From positions 1 to 32,196 of IMG/VR virus record IMGVR_UViG_3300043392_000003: a DNA stretch of 32,196 bases; one strand, 5' to 3'. How positions within the stretch are numbered: the first letter of the stretch is position 1; every line of letters begins with the position of its first letter. This stretch comes from a virus. The translations under genes and the position numbers were made by a program. The notes beneath the pieces were generated by a model. It had not been told where the DNA came from and did no database searches. It was given only the letters and a program-made list of their open reading frames with translations. Below are positions 2,044 through 32,196 of this stretch, one piece after another.

Positions 2044-3184
2044 AAGCACACAAGAGATAAGCCAAGAAGCTTTGGAGCTTTACATTAGTGGCAAGTTTCC
2101 AAGTCAAGGAGCAATTGTTCGACATCTATTTGAGAAATATCCATACATAAGCAAGGAGCATTTAAGAATTGCTTTACTTCGCAGAGTTCAAAGATACAAG
2201 CGAATCAATAACCATCCAGCTCTTGCTACTGAATGCGAGGCAGTAGGATTACCTTTAGAGAATGTTTCAAATTATTGGTATAAAGGAAAGCAATATTCGG
2301 TACACGTTAAAGGAGATAAAGCAAAAACTTATGAAGAAATTCGAGATGAGATTGTTGCAAGTATGCAAGAGTATTCTCCAGTATATCCTACTATCATTCG
2401 TGGTAATAATACTGATGGGCATCTGCTTGTTGTTGATCCCGCTGATATTCATATTGGTAAGCTTGCAACAGCTTATGAAACTGGAGATAGCTATAATGTA
2501 GAGATTGCAATGAAGCGAGTATTGGATGGTGTTCGAGGCATTATCCAAAAAGCAAACGGATTTAATATTGACCAAATTTTATTTATTGCTGGCAATGACA
2601 TACTACACACTGATAGCGCCAAGAGAACTACTACAAGCGGTACACCACAAGACACTGATGGGATGTTTTATGAAAATTTCCTATGTGCCAAGAAGCTATA
2701 TGTTGAAGTGATTGAGCTACTAATGCAAGTAGCAGACATTCACTTTGTATTCAATCCATCTAATCACGACTACCAAAGCGGATTCTTTCTTGCAGATGTA
2801 ATTCAGTCTTGGTTTAGGAATTCATCTAATATTACTTTTGATTGTAGCATAGCGCATAGAAAGTATTACCAGTACGGAAGCAATTTAATTGGTAGCACTC
2901 ACGGCGATAGTGCGAAGCCACAAGACTTGCCGATGCTAATGGCAGTTGAATCAAGAGAAAGTTGGGCAGATACAAAACATAAGTATTTTTATTCTCATCA
3001 CTTGCACCACAAAATTAGTAAGGATTATATCGGAGTTACTGTCGAAAGTCTTAGATCGCCAAGCAGTAGCGATAGCTGGCACCACCGCAACGGGTATGGA
3101 GTTGGAGGAGTTAAAGCAGTTGAGGGATTTATACACCATAAAGAATTTGGTCAAGTCGCTCGTTTATCCCATATTTTTAATTAA
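2024..3184 (+). CDS. Calcineurin-like metallophosphoesterase with N-terminal HTH-like region
   Basis: 386 aa. The metallophosphoesterase signature is complete: Asp141-x-His143 (DIHIG), Gly190-Asn191-Asp192 (GND), Asn247-His248-Asp249 (SNHD), His293-x-Asp295 (THGD) and a His cluster at 325-328 (HHLH). These residues bind two metal ions and cleave phosphoester bonds. Residues 1-65 look like a small helical, possibly winged-helix DNA-binding part (ALELYISGKFPSQGAIVRHL). This two-part layout is common in Bacteroidota and other phages; the substrate (DNA ends, RNA or nucleotide) is unknown. It is the last gene before an HNH cassette and the terminator at 3810. Confidence 0.85.
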   Translation: MSNQENKSTQEISQEALELYISGKFPSQGAIVRHLFEKYPYISKEHLRIALLRRVQRYKRINNHPALATECEAVGLPLENVSNYWYKGKQYSVHVKGDKAKTYEEIRDEIVASMQEYSPVYPTIIRGNNTDGHLLVVDPADIHIGKLATAYETGDSYNVEIAMKRVLDGVRGIIQKANGFNIDQILFIAGNDILHTDSAKRTTTSGTPQDTDGMFYENFLCAKKLYVEVIELLMQVADIHFVFNPSNHDYQSGFFLADVIQSWFRNSSNITFDCSIAHRKYYQYGSNLIGSTHGDSAKPQDLPMLMAVESRESWADTKHKYFYSHHLHHKISKDYIGVTVESLRSPSSSDSWHHRNGYGVGGVKAVEGFIHHKEFGQVARLSHIFN

Positions 3185-3283: not shown

Positions 3284-3763
3284 ATGGAAATTTGGAAAGA
3301 AATTAATTGGGTTGATGGGAAATTTGCAATCAGCAATCAAGGTTTAGTTAAAAATTTGATTACTAATAAAATTCATTATGGATCAAATTTAAGAGGCTAT
3401 AAATCAATTAACCTTAAGAATAATGGTAAAATCAAAAACTATTTAATTCATAGAATAGTAGCAAAAGCTTTTATGGATAATTACGACGATAAATTAATGA
3501 TTAACCATATAGATTTTAACAAATCAAATAATAAAATAGATAATTTAGAATTAGTTACTAATAGAGAGAATCAATGCCATTCTATTAAAGCTAAAAATAA
3601 ATTCATAGGAGTTTCTTACCATAAAATTTATAAGGTTTGGACAGCACAAATAATGATAAATGGTAAGCTTAAATATTTAGGAAGATATCAAACTCAAGAA
3701 GATGCTTATAATGCAAGATGTAAATTTGAATTAGATAATGGTATTGTCAATAAATATTTATAA
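3284..3763 (+). CDS. HNH homing endonuclease with AP2 domain
   Basis: 159 aa. Residues 1-45 are a NUMOD4-type DNA-binding segment (MEIWKEINWV...AISNQGLVKN). Residues 55-98 are the HNH nuclease: His56, Asn74-His75 in MINHIDFNK, then NKIDNLELVTNRENQ. Residues 105-150 are an AP2-type DNA-binding domain (GVSYHKIYKVWTAQIMINGK, YLGRYQTQEDAYNAR). The protein is a free-standing selfish nuclease and probably cuts phages lacking the element. It sits between the phosphoesterase gene and the terminator, preceded by a structured leader. It is more AT-rich than the neighbouring structural genes, consistent with mobility. Confidence 0.9.
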   Translation: MEIWKEINWVDGKFAISNQGLVKNLITNKIHYGSNLRGYKSINLKNNGKIKNYLIHRIVAKAFMDNYDDKLMINHIDFNKSNNKIDNLELVTNRENQCHSIKAKNKFIGVSYHKIYKVWTAQIMINGKLKYLGRYQTQEDAYNARCKFELDNGIVNKYL

Positions 3764-6135: not shown

Positions 6136-6233
6136 ATCGCCTCCTTACATTATAGCGATAAAGAACTTAAAATGCTCTCATTTAATGAAACCGAAGTAAG
6201 GAGCGGTGGATTTATTTGGGAGCTTTTTATTTT
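6136..6233 (+). promoter_or_regulatory. Structured mRNA leader of an HNH gene: two hairpins with kissing loops
   Basis: Hairpin 1 is ATCGC (6136-6140) with GCGAT (6155-6159), loop starting CTCCTTAC (6141-6148). Hairpin 2 is 6174-6192 with 6205-6223, about 12 of 19 positions paired, GCTC/GAGC at the base. Its loop holds GTAAGGAG (6196-6203), an exact 8-nt complement of loop 1. A U-rich decamer (6224-6233) separates it from ATG 6234, the same spacing as in the leader at 3195-3283. GTAAGGAG is also the best Shine-Dalgarno-like sequence nearby, though 30 nt from the ATG. Upstream, GCATTTG (6127-6133) weakly resembles a -7 element. Confidence 0.65.
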
Positions 6234-6767
6234 ATGAAAAATTTAGAATGGTATCCATTTTTTTATAATGGATCTGAAACAAACATTGAAGCTACTAAAT
6301 GTGGTAGATTAAGAAAAGTAGAAAAAGATTGGTACGGAAAAGGTAAAGGTAAAAATCGAGTAGTGTATGGAGAAATAGATTTAATGCAAAAAAAAATATC
6401 TAATTCTGGTTACAAGCAAATTAATGTAAGAGTAAATAATAATTTAAGTAGACCATTTACAGTTCATCAAATTATGGCTGCCATTTTTTTAAATCATAAT
6501 ATAGATGGTCATAAATTTGTAATAGATCATATTGATTCCAATAAATTAAATAATAATATTAAAAATTTACGAATTGTGTCGGCAAGACAAAATTGTTCAA
6601 AAGAGAAAACCTTAGTATCAGGACTTCCAGCTGGTGTTCATTTTCATAAACCATTGCAAAAATATGCTTCAAGAATTCATTATAATGGTAAAAAGCATTT
6701 TTTAGGATATTATAACAATATTGAACAAGCATCACAAGCATATCAAACTGCTTTAAACAATTTATAA
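6234..6767 (+). CDS. HNH homing endonuclease with AP2 domain
   Basis: 177 aa from ATG 6234; an in-frame TTG at 6216 lies within the leader hairpin and is rejected. Residues 55-75 precede the nuclease. HNH core: His78 in VHQIMAAIF, Asp98-His99 in VIDHIDSNK, then NNNIKNLRIVSARQN. Residues 132-172 are an AP2-type domain (GVHFHKPLQKYASRIHYNGK, FLGYYNNIEQASQAY). It is related in architecture to the nuclease at 3284. TATAA occurs at both borders (6118-6122 and 6763-6767), and the element separates two early genes without damaging either. Confidence 0.9.
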   Translation: MKNLEWYPFFYNGSETNIEATKCGRLRKVEKDWYGKGKGKNRVVYGEIDLMQKKISNSGYKQINVRVNNNLSRPFTVHQIMAAIFLNHNIDGHKFVIDHIDSNKLNNNIKNLRIVSARQNCSKEKTLVSGLPAGVHFHKPLQKYASRIHYNGKKHFLGYYNNIEQASQAYQTALNNL

Positions 6768-10205: not shown

Positions 10206-10218
10206 AACGATACTTTTT

Positions 10219-10226
10219 TCGTTTAT
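10219..10226 (+). promoter_or_regulatory. TCGTTTAT octamer upstream of the regulatory block
   Basis: Exact copy of the octamer found 5 nt before the ATG of three late genes (13256, 22367, 25385). Here it is 15 nt before ATG 10242, the first gene of the block holding the sigma-like factor. The AACAAW upstream half is not at the expected distance. It may be an autoregulatory site or a chance match. Confidence 0.35.
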
Positions 10227-10241
10227 ATAAAAAAGAGATAT

Positions 10242-10421
10242 ATGAAACCTGAAGAAAGGGCATCTTTCCTATGCAATCACGCTAATTTCTTTTGTAGAGA
10301 TAGAGCCAATGCCATAGAATTAGCTTTGCTTATATGCGAGCTAATACTTGAGAATCGTTTGAAAGAAGATGATAGAGTATATTGGAAGCTTACTGTTGAA
10401 GAGATATATAAACTACGATGA
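10242..10421 (+). CDS. Small hypothetical protein (59 aa), first gene of the regulatory block
   Basis: MKPEERASFLCNHANFFCRD followed by helical RANAIELALLICELILENR and a C-terminal VEEIYKLR. Two Cys at 11 and 18 and His13 are noticeable. Its TGA overlaps the ATG of the sigma-like gene (ATGA), so the two are probably co-translated. No family recognised; a regulator of the downstream sigma factor is conceivable but not shown. Confidence 0.6.
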   Translation: MKPEERASFLCNHANFFCRDRANAIELALLICELILENRLKEDDRVYWKLTVEEIYKLR

Positions 10422-10867
10422 ATCACATATACTCGAAGCATAAACATTGGATTCGTGTGGTGGAAAAGTTTGGCGAAGTACATTATGCAGAAGATGTAGT
10501 GCAAGAGGCATACATCAAAGTTTTTGAAAAGGACATCAACGAAGCCTACTTTTACTTTACGCTACGATCCCTTACAATGGACTTGCATCGAAAGAAAGTT
10601 GAAAAGGTAGAGATAACAAAAGAGATAGAATACTCGTTAATAGAAGAGAATGATGAGTATATCATTGACCTTGCAAAGCCTTACCAAGATTACATCGAAA
10701 CTTGGGATTGGTATGATAAGAAGCTATTCATGCTTTGGATTGAATCAGGAGTAAGTATGAGAGAAATAGCAAGAAGAACGAATATCGGTTTCATGTCAGT
10801 TTACAATACAATTAAAAATTGCAAAGAAAAGATTAAACAATGGGAAAAAGAAAATCACAAGGCTTAG
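10418..10867 (+). CDS. Phage-encoded ECF-like sigma factor
   Basis: 149 aa, very compact. Residues 22-60 read as sigma region 2 (YAEDVVQEAYIKVFEKD with the conserved D-VQE-F pattern, then FYFTLRSLTMDLHRKK, the region 2.3/2.4-like helix). Residues 108-140 form a region 4 helix-turn-helix (SGVSMREIARRTNIGFMSVY, then NTIKNCKEKIK). This two-domain form is that of ECF sigma factors, so the protein could direct host RNA polymerase to phage promoters. It precedes the packaging genes, the usual place for a late regulator. An alternative is a sigma-like DNA-binding protein without polymerase function. Confidence 0.75.
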   Translation: MNHIYSKHKHWIRVVEKFGEVHYAEDVVQEAYIKVFEKDINEAYFYFTLRSLTMDLHRKKVEKVEITKEIEYSLIEENDEYIIDLAKPYQDYIETWDWYDKKLFMLWIESGVSMREIARRTNIGFMSVYNTIKNCKEKIKQWEKENHKA

Positions 10868-11464: not shown

Positions 11465-12023
11465 TAGGGTGTTGCTTTGAAAATCATTTTTAGCTATATT
11501 GCATTATGGAAATATGGAAAAAAATTGATGGCTACCAAGGCTACGAATGTTCTAATTTAGGAAGAATTAAAACATTTAATTGGAAAAATACGGGTAGGGT
11601 TGCAATTATGAAGCCAGCACTTGACAGTTCAGGATATTTGCGAACTGTATTAAAGCGAAATGATGGCAAATTATGTACGATAAAAGTGCATAGAATTATT
11701 TTGCAAACATTTAATCCGAATGACAATAGTAGTATTTTAGAATGTAACCACAAAAACGGGATCAAAAATGACAATAATATTTTGAATCTTGAATGGGTTA
11801 CACGAAAACAAAATTTACAACATTGCAAAGATAACAATTTGCAATATGTTTTAAGAGGAGAAGAGGTAGGCAATTCTGTTCTAACTTCAACAAAAGTACT
11901 TGAGATAAGAAGCAAATTTATTCCAAGAAAATACTCAAGAACAAGATTAGCAAAAGAGTATGGAGTTTCTGAAGCAACAATTAAAGATGTACTTTATAAA
12001 AGAAGTTGGAAACATATATGATA
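11461..12023 (+). mobile_element. HNH homing endonuclease cassette inserted at the TerS-TerL junction
   Basis: ATGATA occurs at 11461-11466 (TerS stop region) and at 12018-12023 (TerL start). Deleting 11461-12017 joins TerS and TerL by an ATGA overlap, the arrangement seen at many other junctions of this genome. The 557-bp unit contains only a short leader and one HNH gene. The direct repeat is short and could be chance, but the restored junction argues for a clean insertion. Confidence 0.5.
11506..12021 (+). CDS. HNH homing endonuclease with C-terminal HTH
   Basis: 171 aa. NUMOD4-like start (MEIWKKIDGYQGYECSNLGR), HNH core with His62 in VHRIILQTF, Asn81-His82 in CNHKNGIKNDN, then NLEWVTRKQN. 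Residues 127-167 contain a helix-turn-helix (TRLAKEYGVSEATIKDVL) instead of the AP2 domain of the two other HNH proteins. Free-standing homing nucleases next to terL are common and usually target terL of competitors. The leader (11465-11505) is short; ATATTGCATT just before the ATG also occurs at 6122-6131. Stop overlaps the TerL ATG. Confidence 0.92.
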   Translation: MEIWKKIDGYQGYECSNLGRIKTFNWKNTGRVAIMKPALDSSGYLRTVLKRNDGKLCTIKVHRIILQTFNPNDNSSILECNHKNGIKNDNNILNLEWVTRKQNLQHCKDNNLQYVLRGEEVGNSVLTSTKVLEIRSKFIPRKYSRTRLAKEYGVSEATIKDVLYKRSWKHI

Positions 12024-13234
12024 ACTATTAACAAAAAATATATCCCCCTGTTTAGCGAAAGTAGTAGATACTTCGTTATAACGGGGGGGCGATAAGTGGG
12101 AGCGGGAAATCGTTTGCACTAAACTCATTTCTTTTGCTTCTAACGTACGAAGTAGGCCATACCATACTATTTACTCGTTACACATTAACATCTGCTCATA
12201 TCTCAATTATTCCCGAATTTGTAGAGAAGATTGAGATGGCTGATTTGCATAACGACTTCAGCATTACCAAAGATGAGATTATAAATCTTCGTACTGGTAG
12301 CAAGATTCTATTCAAAGGAATTAAGACATCTTCAGGAACTCAAACTGCAAACTTGAAATCGTTACAAGGTGTTACGACTTGGATTCTTGATGAGGCAGAA
12401 GAATTAGTTGAGGAGGATATATTTGATAAGATTGACTTATCAGTTCGTAATTCCCAAAAACAAAATAGGGTTATACTTATTTTGAATCCGACTACTAAGG
12501 AACATTTTATCTACAATAGATTCTTTGAGCAAAACGGAGTTGAAGCTGGAGAAACATTAACCAAAGGAGATACGACTTATATCCATACTACTTACCAAGA
12601 TAATATTGAATATCTTTCTGAATCATTTTTAAATCAGATTGAGGCATTAAAGAAAAACAATCCAAAGAAGTTTGAACATACTATTCTTGGTGGGTGGCTT
12701 GACAAAGCAGAGGGAGTTGTATTTACGAATTGGCGATTCGGAGATTTCAATCCTGACAAACTGCAAACATCATTTGGGCAAGACTTTGGATTCTCTATCG
12801 ATCCAACTACATTGGTAGAGGTAGCAATTGACAAGAATAAGCGCAAGATATACGTTAAGGAGCATTTGTATAAGCCTAAGCTAACTACTTCAGAGATTGC
12901 CATAATTAACAAGCAAGTATGCGGAGGCAATTTGATTATTGCGGATAGTGCAGAGCCAAGACTAATTGCTGAATTGCAAAGTCAAAAGTGCAACATTCAG
13001 CCAACTGAAAAAGGAGCTGGAAGTATATCAGCTGGTATTGCTTTGATGCAAGACTACGAAATTATCTTAGAGCCTAACAGCTCAAACATTGCAAAGGAAT
13101 TTAATAACTATATTTATTCGGATAAGAAATCAGGCTTGGTAATTGACAACTTTAATCACGCTATTGATGCTATACGATACAATGTCTTTTATCACTTATC
13201 TAATCCAAGCAAAGGTCAATACTTTGTGTATTAG
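12018..13234 (+). CDS. terL: Terminase large subunit, reading frame broken in the Walker A motif
   Basis: The ATG at 12018 encodes MITINKKYIPLFSESSRYFV-ITGGR and meets TAA at 12093. The -1 frame continues SGSGKSFALNSFLLLL to 13234. A -1 slip on GGGGGGG (12083-12089) gives a 405-aa protein with ITGGAISGSGKS. Removing 5 nt (12091-12095) gives 403 aa with the canonical ITGGRGSGKS. The rest is intact: Walker B WILDEAEE, coupling motif, nuclease Asp residues in QDFGFSIDPT, IIADSAEPR and HAIDAIRY. No ATG or GTG exists upstream of the motif in the second frame. The enzyme pumps DNA into the prohead and is essential, so a rescue mechanism or a sequence error is expected. Confidence 0.85.
12083..12089 (+). 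other. Possible -1 slippery heptamer G GGG GGG in terL
   Basis: In the phase of the 12018 ATG the codons are ACG GGG GGG CGA TAA, so G GGG GGG fits the X XXY YYZ rule exactly and a stop follows one codon later. Slipping by -1 re-reads GCG ATA AGT and enters the rest of terL. A homopolymer of seven is also a place for indel error. Confidence 0.45.
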
Positions 13235-13237
13235 AGT

Positions 13238-13263
13238 AACAAATAAAAACTTAACTCGTTTAT
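13238..13263 (+). promoter_or_regulatory. Bipartite late motif AACAAA-N12-TCGTTTAT before the tail chaperone gene
   Basis: AACAAA (13238-13243) and TCGTTTAT (13256-13263) separated by 12 nt, then AAATT and ATG 13269. The AAC-N16-CGT spacing is like that of ECF sigma promoters (-35 AAC, -10 CGT). If it is a promoter, transcription would start at or next to the ATG. Confidence 0.5.
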
Positions 13264-13268
13264 AAATT

Positions 13269-13934
13269 ATGAAAGTAGAAATTACTATTCCTACGGATTT
13301 AAGCGAAGTGCCATTGGCTCGCTATCAAAAGTTTTTAAAGATTGCGGAGAACAACGAAGATTCGGAATTCTTGCATCACAAAATGATTGAGATATTTTGC
13401 GGGATAGATTTAAAGCTTGTTCCTCAAATTAAATACAAGGACATATTGGATATTAATGGCATCCTAACAAATATGTTCAATAAAGACCATAAGCTTGTGA
13501 AAACTTTTAAGCTTGGTGGAGTTGAGTTTGGATTCATTCCAAATATGGAGGACATTACATCAGGGGAATATATGGATTTAGATACATATATTAACGACTG
13601 GAAAGAGTTACATAAGGCAATGGCAGTCTTATATAGACCAATTAAAACGAAGATTGGTAATAAATATACGATTGAGCCTTACTTGGGATCGGATGCTTAC
13701 TCCGATGTAATGAAGAATGCGCCATTAGATGTTGTTTTAGGAGCAAGGGTTTTTTTTTATCATTTAGGGAACGAGTTACTGAAAAGTACGTTGACCTATT
13801 TGGAGGGGAATCAGGAGGCAATGAGTATTCTGAACAAGCACAATTTGGGCAAAGATGGGGATGGTACTCCTCACTCTATGCTCTTGCTCAAGGCGATGTT
13901 AGAAGATTTGATGATATTACCAAGCTTTCTCTAA
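13269..13934 (+). CDS. Tail assembly chaperone, short (0-frame) product
   Basis: 221 aa. MKVEITIPTDLSEVPLARYQ, then YMDLDTYINDWKELHKAMAV, LYRPIKTKIGNKYTIEPYLG and MKNAPLDVVLGARVFFYHLG match the pattern of Bacteroidota phage tail chaperones (lambda gpG analogues), which hold the tape measure during tail tube assembly. The 0-frame ends HSMLLLKAMLEDLMILPSFL. Protein-like sequence continues in the -1 frame to 14014, giving the longer form. It starts 5 nt after the TCGTTTAT motif. Confidence 0.8.
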   Translation: MKVEITIPTDLSEVPLARYQKFLKIAENNEDSEFLHHKMIEIFCGIDLKLVPQIKYKDILDINGILTNMFNKDHKLVKTFKLGGVEFGFIPNMEDITSGEYMDLDTYINDWKELHKAMAVLYRPIKTKIGNKYTIEPYLGSDAYSDVMKNAPLDVVLGARVFFYHLGNELLKSTLTYLEGNQEAMSILNKHNLGKDGDGTPHSMLLLKAMLEDLMILPSFL

Positions 13935-22349: not shown

Positions 22350-22374
22350 AACAATCAAATTTTAAATCGTTTAT
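22350..22374 (+). promoter_or_regulatory. Bipartite late motif AACAAT-N11-TCGTTTAT before the protease gene
   Basis: AACAAT (22350-22355) and TCGTTTAT (22367-22374), then AGGTT and ATG 22380. Same layout as at 13238 and 25367 with one nucleotide less in the spacer. It opens the head gene block. Confidence 0.5.
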
Positions 22375-22379
22375 AGGTT

Positions 22380-22949
22380 ATGAGAATCGTGGAATTAATT
22401 ATTGATAAAGATACTGATGGCATTGATGCCGTTTCCCTTGTCGACTTTCCCGCAATAGAGAGCAACTTTGTCGCTTTAAATAAAGAATACGAAGTTAAGC
22501 TTGCCGAAGTAGATGCGGAGAAACGGATATTGATGGGGGCGGCATTAATACCAAATAAGCAGATTTATCGTAAGTATGGAAAGGATGAGTTTTATGTATT
22601 CTTCTCAAAGGAAACAGTAAAGCAAGCATCTGAATTATTCCTAAAAAATGGCAATCAGTCAAATGCTACTTTGCAACATAATAGCAAGATTGATGGAATG
22701 ACTGTTGTAGAATCTTGGATTATTGATGATACTGAAAATGATAAATCTAATGCTTATGGCTTTTCATTGCCACAAGGTACTTGGATGATTTCAATGAAAG
22801 CAGACAATGACAAGGTTTGGCAAGATGTTAAAGATGGAAAAGTTAAAGGCTTTTCTATTGAGGGATATTTTGCGGATAAATTAGAAATGGCTAAAGAAGA
22901 AGAAATTGTTAAACAAATTATTGACATACTTAAAGATGGCGAAGAATAA
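22380..22949 (+). CDS. XkdF-like prohead protease
   Basis: 189 aa. Opens with ELIIDKDTDGIDAVSLVDFP (the family's self-cleaved N-terminal region), followed by RILMGAALIPNKQIYRKYGK, DEFYVFFSKETVKQASELFL, NGNQSNATLQHNSKIDGMTV, VESWIIDDTENDKSNAYGFS, and WQDVKDGKVKGFSIEGYF. These segments define the XkdF-type putative serine protease family (PF14550), equivalent to prohead maturation proteases. His in LQHN and Ser in FSIEG are the likely catalytic residues. It precedes the scaffold and major capsid protein, as expected. Starts 5 nt after TCGTTTAT. Confidence 0.9.
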   Translation: MRIVELIIDKDTDGIDAVSLVDFPAIESNFVALNKEYEVKLAEVDAEKRILMGAALIPNKQIYRKYGKDEFYVFFSKETVKQASELFLKNGNQSNATLQHNSKIDGMTVVESWIIDDTENDKSNAYGFSLPQGTWMISMKADNDKVWQDVKDGKVKGFSIEGYFADKLEMAKEEEIVKQIIDILKDGEE

Positions 22950-24725: not shown

Positions 24726-24755
24726 AGCTCCTCGTTAATTCGGGGAGCTTATTTT
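24726..24755 (+). terminator. Probable intrinsic terminator after the capsid gene
   Basis: AGCTCCTCG (24726-24734) pairs with CGGGGAGCT (24741-24749), one U:G wobble, loop TTAATT, followed by TATTTT. It would limit read-through after the highly expressed capsid gene, reducing tail tube and portal levels. Confidence 0.65.
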
Positions 24756-25333: not shown

Positions 25334-25358
25334 GGTGGGCAGATGTCCCACCTTTTTT
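25334..25358 (+). terminator. Intrinsic terminator after the tail tube gene
   Basis: GGTGGG (25334-25339) pairs with CCCACC (25347-25352) around a 7-nt loop, followed by six T (25353-25358). GC-rich stem plus T-run is a textbook intrinsic terminator. The bipartite motif of the next block begins 9 nt later. Confidence 0.8.
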
Positions 25359-25366
25359 CATTTAAA

Positions 25367-25392
25367 AACAAACCTATAATATTATCGTTTAT
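25367..25392 (+). promoter_or_regulatory. Bipartite late motif AACAAA-N12-TCGTTTAT after a terminator
   Basis: AACAAA (25367-25372) and TCGTTTAT (25385-25392), 12 nt apart, then TAATT and ATG 25398. Its position right after a terminator is the best argument that this repeated motif is a promoter rather than a translation signal. Confidence 0.55.
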
Positions 25393-25397
25393 TAATT

Positions 25398-25724
25398 ATG
25401 ATAATCTTAAAAGAATCAGCATTAGCGCAAGAGGTTAAATTTATACCAACAAGACTTGCAACTGCTAACAAGTTATTTTTGCGCAATGAAACTACCAATG
25501 TGGAAGTTGAGTATGCAATTACTTGTACTGCTGAAAGCTTCTATTTGAAATTTAGTAAGATTGTCGCTTTAGAGCAAGGACATTTTTACACAATGACTAT
25601 CAAGAATAATACGGATTTAGTGTATCTTGATAAAGTATTTTGTACTAACCAAGATATTGATACATATTCAGTTAATAAAGATGAGTATGTGGCACACAAT
25701 CAAAACATAATTTTCTATGAGTAA
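25398..25724 (+). CDS. Hypothetical protein upstream of portal
   Basis: 108 aa, beta-rich: IPTRLATANKLFLRNETTNV, YAITCTAESFYLKFSKIVAL, GHFYTMTIKNNTDLVYLDKV, then a Tyr/Asn-rich end. Overlaps the portal gene by 8 nt. A head decoration or connector role is possible from position only. Starts 5 nt after TCGTTTAT. Confidence 0.65.
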   Translation: MIILKESALAQEVKFIPTRLATANKLFLRNETTNVEVEYAITCTAESFYLKFSKIVALEQGHFYTMTIKNNTDLVYLDKVFCTNQDIDTYSVNKDEYVAHNQNIIFYE

Positions 25725-27455: not shown

Positions 27456-28046
27456 ATGGCATTAGTTTATCAACATACAAGATTAGATACTAATGATGTA
27501 TTTTATATTGGAATAAGTTCTAATTATAAAAGAGCATATCAAAAAGCTGATAGAAGAAATATAATTTGGGGTAGAATCGTTAAAAAAACTGATTATAAAA
27601 TTGATATTATAGCAGAAGATTTAACTTGGGAGCAAGCTTGTAAATTAGAAATAGAATTAATTGCCAAGTATGGAAGAATTGATTTAGGTAATGGTACTTT
27701 AGCTAATTTAACTAATGGGGGCGATGGATCATTTAATAGAATTCAAACTCAAGAAGAAAAAGAAAAAAGAGCTAAATCTATTAGAGGCATGAAAAGAAAT
27801 GATGAAACTAAAAGAAAAATAAGTTTAGCGCATAAAGGAAAAGTTTTTAGTGAAAAATCAAAAAAAAGAATGTCTGATGCGCATATTGGACAAATTAGTG
27901 CAAATGCAAAAATTGTACTTGATTTGCAAACTGGAATATTTTTTGATAGTTTAAGAAGTGCATGCGAATTATTAAATATTAAGTATAAAAACCAATTTGC
28001 ATTAATGAGTAGAAATAGTTTAAAATCAAGATTTACGTTTATATAA
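27456..28046 (+). CDS. GIY-YIG homing endonuclease with NUMOD3 motifs
   Basis: 196 aa. GIY-YIG core: VYQHTRLDTN, then VFYIGISSNYKRAYQKADRR with Arg26, and the acidic helix WEQACKLEIELIAKYGR carrying the probable metal ligand Glu66, ending LANLTNGGDGS. Residues about 118-150 hold NUMOD3 motifs (KRKISLAHKGKVFSEKSKKR, MSDAHIGQ) and 160-195 a NUMOD1/HTH-like end. Inserted between portal and connector: ATAAT at 27447-27451 and 28043-28047. Joining these recreates a TAATG overlap of portal stop and connector start. Confidence 0.92.
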   Translation: MALVYQHTRLDTNDVFYIGISSNYKRAYQKADRRNIIWGRIVKKTDYKIDIIAEDLTWEQACKLEIELIAKYGRIDLGNGTLANLTNGGDGSFNRIQTQEEKEKRAKSIRGMKRNDETKRKISLAHKGKVFSEKSKKRMSDAHIGQISANAKIVLDLQTGIFFDSLRSACELLNIKYKNQFALMSRNSLKSRFTFI

Positions 28047-32001: not shown

Positions 32002-32009
32002 TATATTTG
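32002..32009 (+). promoter_or_regulatory. Possible -7 promoter element TATATTTG
   Basis: TATATTTG fits TAnnTTTG exactly and lies 21 nt before the ATG at 32031, just after the tail fibre stop. No clear -33 element is visible. It may boost the lysis genes that follow. Confidence 0.35.
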
Positions 32010-32030
32010 CTTAAACAAACACAAAATAAA

Positions 32031-32196
32031 ATGAAAAAGTATTCTGACTTATTACGATTAGTTCAAATATTAAATGCTGTTGGACAACAAGCTAATACTA
32101 AAGCTCAAAAGAAACTTGCTAAAATTGGCGAATTGATCCAAGTACATTTAGACGATTTCAATGATAAAAAAGATGAGATTCGTTTAGATGCTTGTT
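32031..32196 (+). CDS. Small phage protein spanning the circle junction (5' part)
   Basis: ATG at 32031 begins MKKYSDLLRLVQILNAVGQQ and remains open to the contig end, continuing in phase at base 1 to the stop at 355-357. An A-rich leader precedes the ATG with no Shine-Dalgarno, as usual in Bacteroidota. A TATATTTG element at 32002-32009 may drive it. It follows the tail fibre gene by 30 nt. The only reason it looks partial is the arbitrary cut of a circular genome. Confidence 0.85.
   Translation, partial: MKKYSDLLRLVQILNAVGQQANTKAQKKLAKIGELIQVHLDDFNDKKDEIRLDAC
32070..32196. repeat. Terminal direct repeat, right copy
   Basis: Exact copy of bases 1-127. The open reading frame that starts at 32031 continues in phase through this copy into position 1, where position 1 is the first base of codon 14. 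This supports circular closure with a unit length of 32,069 bp. Confidence 0.95.

Follow-up and report, generated by a model that had tools for sequence, protein, structure and literature searches.

A bipartite motif fused to the start codons of three gene blocks in a phage genome is a probable late promoter for the phage's own ECF-like sigma factor

A bipartite motif that stands at a fixed distance before the ATG of three genes in a viral genome could serve transcription, translation or some other process, and this locus raises the question of which of these it serves and what reads it. The window, i.e., the whole stretch of 32,196 nt that was analyzed, ends in an exact direct repeat of 127 bp (1-127 and 32070-32196), which makes it very probable that the genome is complete and circular, with a length of ~32.07 kb; in that case, a motif scan of the window covers the whole genome. 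In a pattern scan of both strands, AACAAW-N11/12-TCGTTTAT-N5-ATG occurred three times, at 13238, 22350 and 25367, always on the plus strand, exactly where the first-pass annotation had placed it. The pattern AACAAWN{11,12}TCGTTTAT had matches only at 13238-13263, 22350-22374 and 25367-25392, against an expectation of 0.00 from 100 dinucleotide shuffles, and TCGTTTATNNNNNATG was found in the window exactly three times, without mismatch. The interval from AAC to CGT, claimed earlier to be 15-16 nt, measured 16, 15 and 16 nt at the three sites, respectively, which is the spacing of ECF-type promoters; the N5 spacer ends in TT at all three, again as claimed, and an A directly follows each ATG. The bare octamer TCGTTTAT is also found elsewhere in the window (e.g., at 3160 and 10219) and on the minus strand; it is the bipartite arrangement together with the fixed ATG register, not the bare octamer, that sets the three sites apart.

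All three sites lie on the plus strand at the heads of gene blocks, after non-overlapping junctions with gaps of 34, 39 and 92 nt to the previous ORF, in agreement with the earlier reading of these junctions. The first putative late promoter consists of a -35-like AACAAA at 13238-13243, found at the same place in relatives, and a -10-like TCGTTTAT at 13256-13263 (CGT at 13257), supported by the pattern, the relatives and a position weight matrix (PWM). Its transcription start is predicted, from register and purine conservation, at 13269, the A of the ATG, 12 nt past the C of CGT, and the gene that begins there (13269-13934; PHROG 32199, function unknown) directly follows the terminase. The second has AACAAT at 22350-22355 (pattern and relatives) and TCGTTTAT at 22367-22374 (pattern, relatives and PWM), with a predicted +1 at 22380 on the first base of a head maturation protease gene (22380-22949; Pfam Peptidase_S78_2). 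The third has AACAAA at 25367-25372 and TCGTTTAT at 25385-25392, with the same respective support, and a predicted +1 at 25398, where a gene for a 108-aa protein of unknown function begins (25398-25724), the portal gene being next at 25717. Just before the third site, an intrinsic terminator-like hairpin with a T-run occupies 25334-25352 (-17.1 kcal/mol, z -3.4), which bears out the claim of a terminator directly ahead of one of the copies. The motif thus stands at the post-terminase, protease and portal block heads, and the first early gene (ATG 32031) is headed by a contrasting, host-type promoter box, TATATTTG, at 32002-32009 on the plus strand; the consensus of the Bacteroidota primary-sigma -7 box is TAnnTTTG (PMC6847099, PMC9723704). 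Another strong terminator-like hairpin (24726-24749) separates genes 23759 and 24778 and is followed by no late motif; a possible role is to adjust how much of the upstream gene, perhaps that of the capsid, is expressed relative to the later genes.

The PWM used for the genome-wide scan was trained on other phage clades only and held no information on the ATG. An earlier version had looked weak because it penalized T before CGT, the sites of the window's own clade being outside the training set, and this position was then dropped. The hold-out matrix ranked the three sites 1, 2 and 3 in the window; random windows yielded 0.097 matches each at that score, and none of the 300 contained three. 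The PWM also matched within gene 23759 and, in some relatives, within coding regions; these matches were attributed to conservation of the coding sequence and discounted. The primary-sigma box in the form TAHHTTTG was absent from all three motif sites, folding of the three sites revealed no RNA structure, and Rfam had no match anywhere in the window. A weaker candidate, AAC-N11-CGTTTATA at 10206-10226 on the plus strand (PWM 14.1), precedes the gene at 10242 and the sigma gene described below; it is also present in one relative (L012), has its ATG at +22, and might conceivably reflect autoregulation of the sigma factor, which we suggest with low confidence.

For the comparison with related phages, approximately 250 loci from viral contigs were found via the terminase, protease, portal and sigma proteins. 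When the post-terminase region was read without anchoring, nearly all relatives had the motif, consisting of AACAAA (or TACAAA), a variable spacer, ACGTTTATA (or TCGTTTATA), 4-5 bases and the ATG; the motif likewise stands ahead of the homologs of 22380 and 25398. The exact 12-nt register of GTTT/GTTA was found in 134 of 139 homologs of 13269, 109 of 116 homologs of 22380 and 66 of 85 homologs of 25398, with a further 18 of the latter having GTTT/GTTA at 13 nt. Since the homologs of 13269 that are in register belong to 20 of 23 protein clusters (75% identity), the motif does not represent one recent copy. At the three gene heads, AAC-N15/16-CGT is retained despite protein identities of 46-80%, while the spacer diverges. 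Over all loci, the PWM had 185 distinct matches on the plus strand, mostly 12-13 nt before an ATG, versus 3 on the minus strand, so that the motif is far from equally common on the two strands or at arbitrary places within genes. The motif was not found at the distant protease homologs L102-L105, L107 and L108, in which the sigma region lies outside the available sequence, and no recognizable CGTT core was found in the sigma group L252/L255. Several loci (L166, L169, L171, L172, L175, L179 and L186) have an extra copy of the motif, which precedes a small ORF upstream of the 20847 homolog and closely resembles the same clade's own post-terminase promoter.

The position of the RNA start was addressed with 166 distinct sites anchored on GTTTA, with the C of CGT taken as 0. 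The start codon is at +12 in 147 of the 166 sites, and GTG starts occupy the same register; in the well-anchored exceptions the ATG lies only farther downstream, at +13, +14 or +15, and never before +12. At +12, 97% of the sites have A and 2% have G, and at +11, 94% have a pyrimidine. Where the ATG is displaced downstream, the purine at +12 is still present, usually with T at +11. This pattern is as expected of a -1/+1 pair, and the register and purine conservation suggest that the predicted late mRNAs would be leaderless.

It could be argued that the promoter is correctly identified and that the RNA starts a few nucleotides inside the ORF or upstream of it, in which case the actual starts would be different or the mRNAs would have a short leader. 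ECF promoters do allow 1-3 nt of play, and in many homologs of 25398 the ATG is at +13, with +14 or +15 in others. However, the shift of well-anchored ATGs in the downstream direction only, with retention of the purine at +12, argues against this possibility, as does a fourth site that has a leader and independently yields the same +1; we regard a shifted start as unlikely. In about a dozen relatives, this fourth site is a perfect-scoring motif heading the genes upstream of the 683 homolog; the motif is 28-31 nt before the ATG, with an A-rich leader of 14-17 nt, AAACAAACAACAAAA-ATG, in between. In the window, the counterpart leader, AAACAAACACAAAATAAA, sits behind the host-type TATATTTG at 32002, not behind the phage motif. 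Bacteroidota primary-sigma promoters have 4-5 nt from the -7 box to the start (PMC6847099), and the +1 derived from this spacing in the window coincides with the base predicted by the +12 rule in relatives; this agreement argues for a +1 at base 12. It should be noted that this early-side head (32002-32031), where the window has the host-type TATATTTG, has the phage motif in L117, L121, L165, L184, L205 and L242. The comparison of window and relatives indicates that the promoter type is swapped at one place, with the A-rich leader nearly unchanged, and that in some relatives the phage-type motif class also heads the early side.

The fourth site bears on another explanation, i.e., that the motif is a translation-initiation signal that replaces the Shine-Dalgarno (SD) sequence upstream of the AUG, on longer mRNAs started elsewhere. 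The fixed distance to the start codon would fit such a signal, and Bacteroidota, which lack SD sequences, favor A at -3, -6 and -12/-13 (PMC6847099). However, the same AAC-N-CGT pair stands 28-31 nt before the ATG at the fourth site, and its detachment from the ATG there argues for a promoter and against a translation signal. Furthermore, the motif heads only three of some 45 genes of the window, always the first gene of a block; the AAC box is 15/16 nt away across a drifting spacer with no RNA structure; position -3 is often T, contrary to the Kozak-like rule; and changes of the -10 element follow the sigma factor (see below). Therefore, a translation signal appears highly improbable.

The presumed reader of the three promoters is encoded at 10418-10867 on the plus strand, where the first-pass annotation had noticed a sigma-like protein. 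The product and its 35 homologs all match the sigma70-ECF model TIGR02937 at E <= 0.01 (best, 1.1e-11; window protein, 2e-07). The window protein is below the curated cut-offs, with 30.8 vs 42.9 bits for TIGR02937 and 16.1 vs 24 for Pfam Sigma70_r2, and is therefore called ECF-like. It consists of 149 aa with sigma2 and sigma4 only, i.e., without sigma1.1 or sigma3, in line with the size of ECF sigma factors (~150-200 aa). The AlphaFold model has helices at 2-63 and 78-146 with a low-confidence linker between them; confidence is good within the domains, and the pTM of 0.39 leaves their arrangement undefined. Among structure and profile searches, the best matches were the ECF sigma factors SigW, SigL, SigH and SigE; the structural alignment extends over 1-149 for sigmaE, SigL and SigH, and the sigma4 part aligns to SigW, 2h27 and 3mzy at 2-3 A. 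The gene is syntenic: in all 78 loci, counting the window, with 4 kb or more of sequence upstream of the terminase, it is situated 1.1-5.2 kb before the terminase. IMG/VR contains several hundred genes for related sigma factors. A tblastn search of cultured phages with the window sigma had no match, and a sigma search of genome contigs gave only distant matches (23-50%), with unrelated ECF sigma factors among them. The conservation of the arrangement across a large phage family with a matching sigma factor points to a general late-gene switch, not a chance repeat.

The -10 element differs among sigma groups: it is CGTTTATA in large groups, TGTTTATA in the L204 group and AGTTTAAT in L083; the L016 group has GGTTTATA at its 13269 site, and the L243 and L248 groups have CGTTATAT, at two different genes, with CGTTATAT at both sites in L245 and L248. 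A diverged sigma factor is accompanied by a coordinated change of the -10 element at several sites (CGTTTATA, CGTTATATA or CGTTAATA). For example, the cultured Nonlabens phage P12024S has six late heads with CGTTAMTA and the ATG at +12, of which five have CGTTAATA and one, at gene 179, has CGTTACTA; a clear AACAAA box is present at five of the six. Its sigma factor, gp33, annotated as Sigma-70 region 2, was found by profile alone (E ~2e-10). If one trans-acting factor reads the sites of a genome, the -10 element should change at several of them together, as it does here. The tracking of sigma groups by -10 types is strong but indirect support for a cognate pair, in that the sigma factor and its sites both follow the phage phylogeny and the correlation alone is no proof of contact. 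The sigma -10 loop (INEAY, INFAY or INYAY) was inspected for residue-to-base co-variation, which followed no clean rule, and the tracking holds at the level of groups only.

The same observations bear on two further explanations. One is that the promoters are served by a host ECF sigma factor, such as one implied by the SM6 CGT-box motif of F. psychrophilum, and not by the phage sigma factor; flavobacteria indeed have several ECF sigma factors and a CGT-box promoter class (PMC9723704). However, each motif-bearing phage with enough sequence has an ECF-like sigma factor of its own, and the -10 element shifts with the phage sigma factor at several sites together, although a site read by the host would be expected to hold the host consensus; we consider a host reader quite improbable. 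The other is that the motif is a repeated operator or another DNA signal, such as a repressor, packaging or recombination site. Short conserved repeats within intergenic gaps could be of this kind, but the single orientation, the placement at gene heads, the ECF spacing, the concerted change with the sigma factor and the lack of a palindrome make this hardly credible.

Taken together, the three sites are most probably late promoters for the phage ECF-like sigma factor on the host core polymerase, with RNA starts at or near the ATG, a reading to which we assign a probability of roughly 0.83. The conserved geometry, the plus-strand bias, the presence of the sigma gene and the concerted -10 change all speak for the late-promoter interpretation offered by the first-pass annotation, within which direct recognition of the three sites by the 10418 product is proposed from these sequence patterns and the late timing from gene content. 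Under this model, the early genes, including that of the sigma factor, would first be transcribed via the host primary sigma factor from TATATTTG at 32002; the accumulating phage sigma factor would then activate three late blocks, from 13269 on, from 22380 on (protease and capsid) and from 25398 on (portal and tail). In the complex of host core polymerase and 10418 sigma, sigma4 would contact AACAAA (-35) and sigma2 would contact CGTTTAT (-10), and the RNA would begin 12 nt after the C of CGT, on the A of the gene's ATG. With +1 on this A, the late mRNAs would be leaderless or would have a leader of 1-3 nt. The host probably belongs to aquatic Bacteroidota, judging from relatedness to P12024S, base composition and the TATATTTG box; a prophage search of genome contigs detected no terminase relative, and the host assignment thus continues to lean on P12024S.

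Several other features of the window and its relatives are worth recording. The reading frame of the large terminase is broken at Walker A (12020-12134): translation from the ATG at 12020 ends in ...TGGR-stop, and the remainder can be read in the -1 frame, across G_GGG_GGG (ACG GGG GGG CGA TAA). The cassette GGGGGGGCGATAAGTGGGAGC is also present in L012, L013, L015/L188, L077 and L089, and absent from closer relatives, e.g., L004; a programmed -1 frameshift or a 5-nt insertion that has spread are both possible. Four free-standing ORFs, at 11506-12021, 3284-3763, 6216-6767 and 27456-28046, are scattered over the window; three encode HNH endonucleases and one a homing-endonuclease-like protein, and the endonuclease gene at 11506-12021 directly precedes the frameshifted terminase only in the window and L089. 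The 59-kb record IMGVR_UViG_3300027969_000114 (L048 and L080) contains two different terminase loci of this phage family and represents either two joined phages or a mis-assembly.

Late promoters read by phage sigma factors are already known. In Salmonella phage 7-11, the sigma factor SaPh711_gp47 with the host core reads late promoters GTAAtg-(16)-aCTA, and its nearest sigma relatives were reported from Winogradskyella, a flavobacterium (PMC8948821). The two systems share a phage sigma factor with region 4, a bipartite promoter with a 16-nt spacer, late genes and the host core, and the start is 6-9 bp from the element in 7-11, compared to the 6 nt past CGTTTAT predicted for the window. However, the elements differ (GTAAtg-(16)-aCTA vs AACAAA-N12-CGTTTAT), the phage belongs to another family, and fusion to the start codon was not reported. 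The phiEco32 sigma factor gp36 also turns on late genes, but it reads a single element, tAATGTAtA, at middle and late promoters, with no -35 element and no sigma region 4 (PMC8948821). The SM6 promoters of the flavobacterium F. psychrophilum have a CGT box at -10 that is ascribed to ECF sigma factors; this is, however, a host regulon of type IX secretion genes, non-phage, for which no fusion to the start codon is described (PMC9723704). The late promoters of phage AR9, AACA-N6-TA/G, likewise have an upstream AACA box and TA or TG at the start, but they are read by a phage multisubunit polymerase, have leaders of 26-491 nt and an incompatible spacing, and are a resemblance only (PMC5312081). 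The Nonlabens phages P12024S and P12024L (Inhavirus; NC_018271 and NC_018272) are relatives, with a terminase 60% and a portal 33% identical to those of the window; P12024S differs in its -10 element (CGTTAATA vs CGTTTATA), in having more late promoters and in a sigma factor that is 21% identical in alignment. In the literature searched, no description of the P12024S/P12024L promoters was found, nor did an incomplete search reveal, for Bacteroidota, any phage sigma promoter fused to a start codon. Leaderless mRNAs make up ~5.5% of mapped mRNAs in Flavobacterium psychrophilum (PMC9723704), and 5' UTRs under 10 nt only 3.7% in B. thetaiotaomicron (PMC7366714). What sets the present system apart is the conserved fusion of promoter and start codon in a host group where leaderless mRNAs are rare.

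For a large family of phages with hardly any cultured members, the results outline a transcription program that can be tested, directly so in the cultured member P12024S. The naturally diverged set of sigma factors and promoters (CGTTTATA, GGTTTATA, CGTTATATA, CGTTAATA) should be useful for understanding how ECF sigma factors select the -10 element. If the starts fall on the AUG, the system would offer a clear example of leaderless expression by design among Bacteroidota, in which SD is unused and leaderless messages are rare. A tentative extension, to which we give a low but appreciable chance, is that the late switch doubles as a switch to leaderless translation, in that the sigma factor would purposely make the mRNAs of the structural-gene blocks begin at the AUG; if true, the ribosome would select late messages differently from the mostly leadered messages of the host and of the early phage genes.
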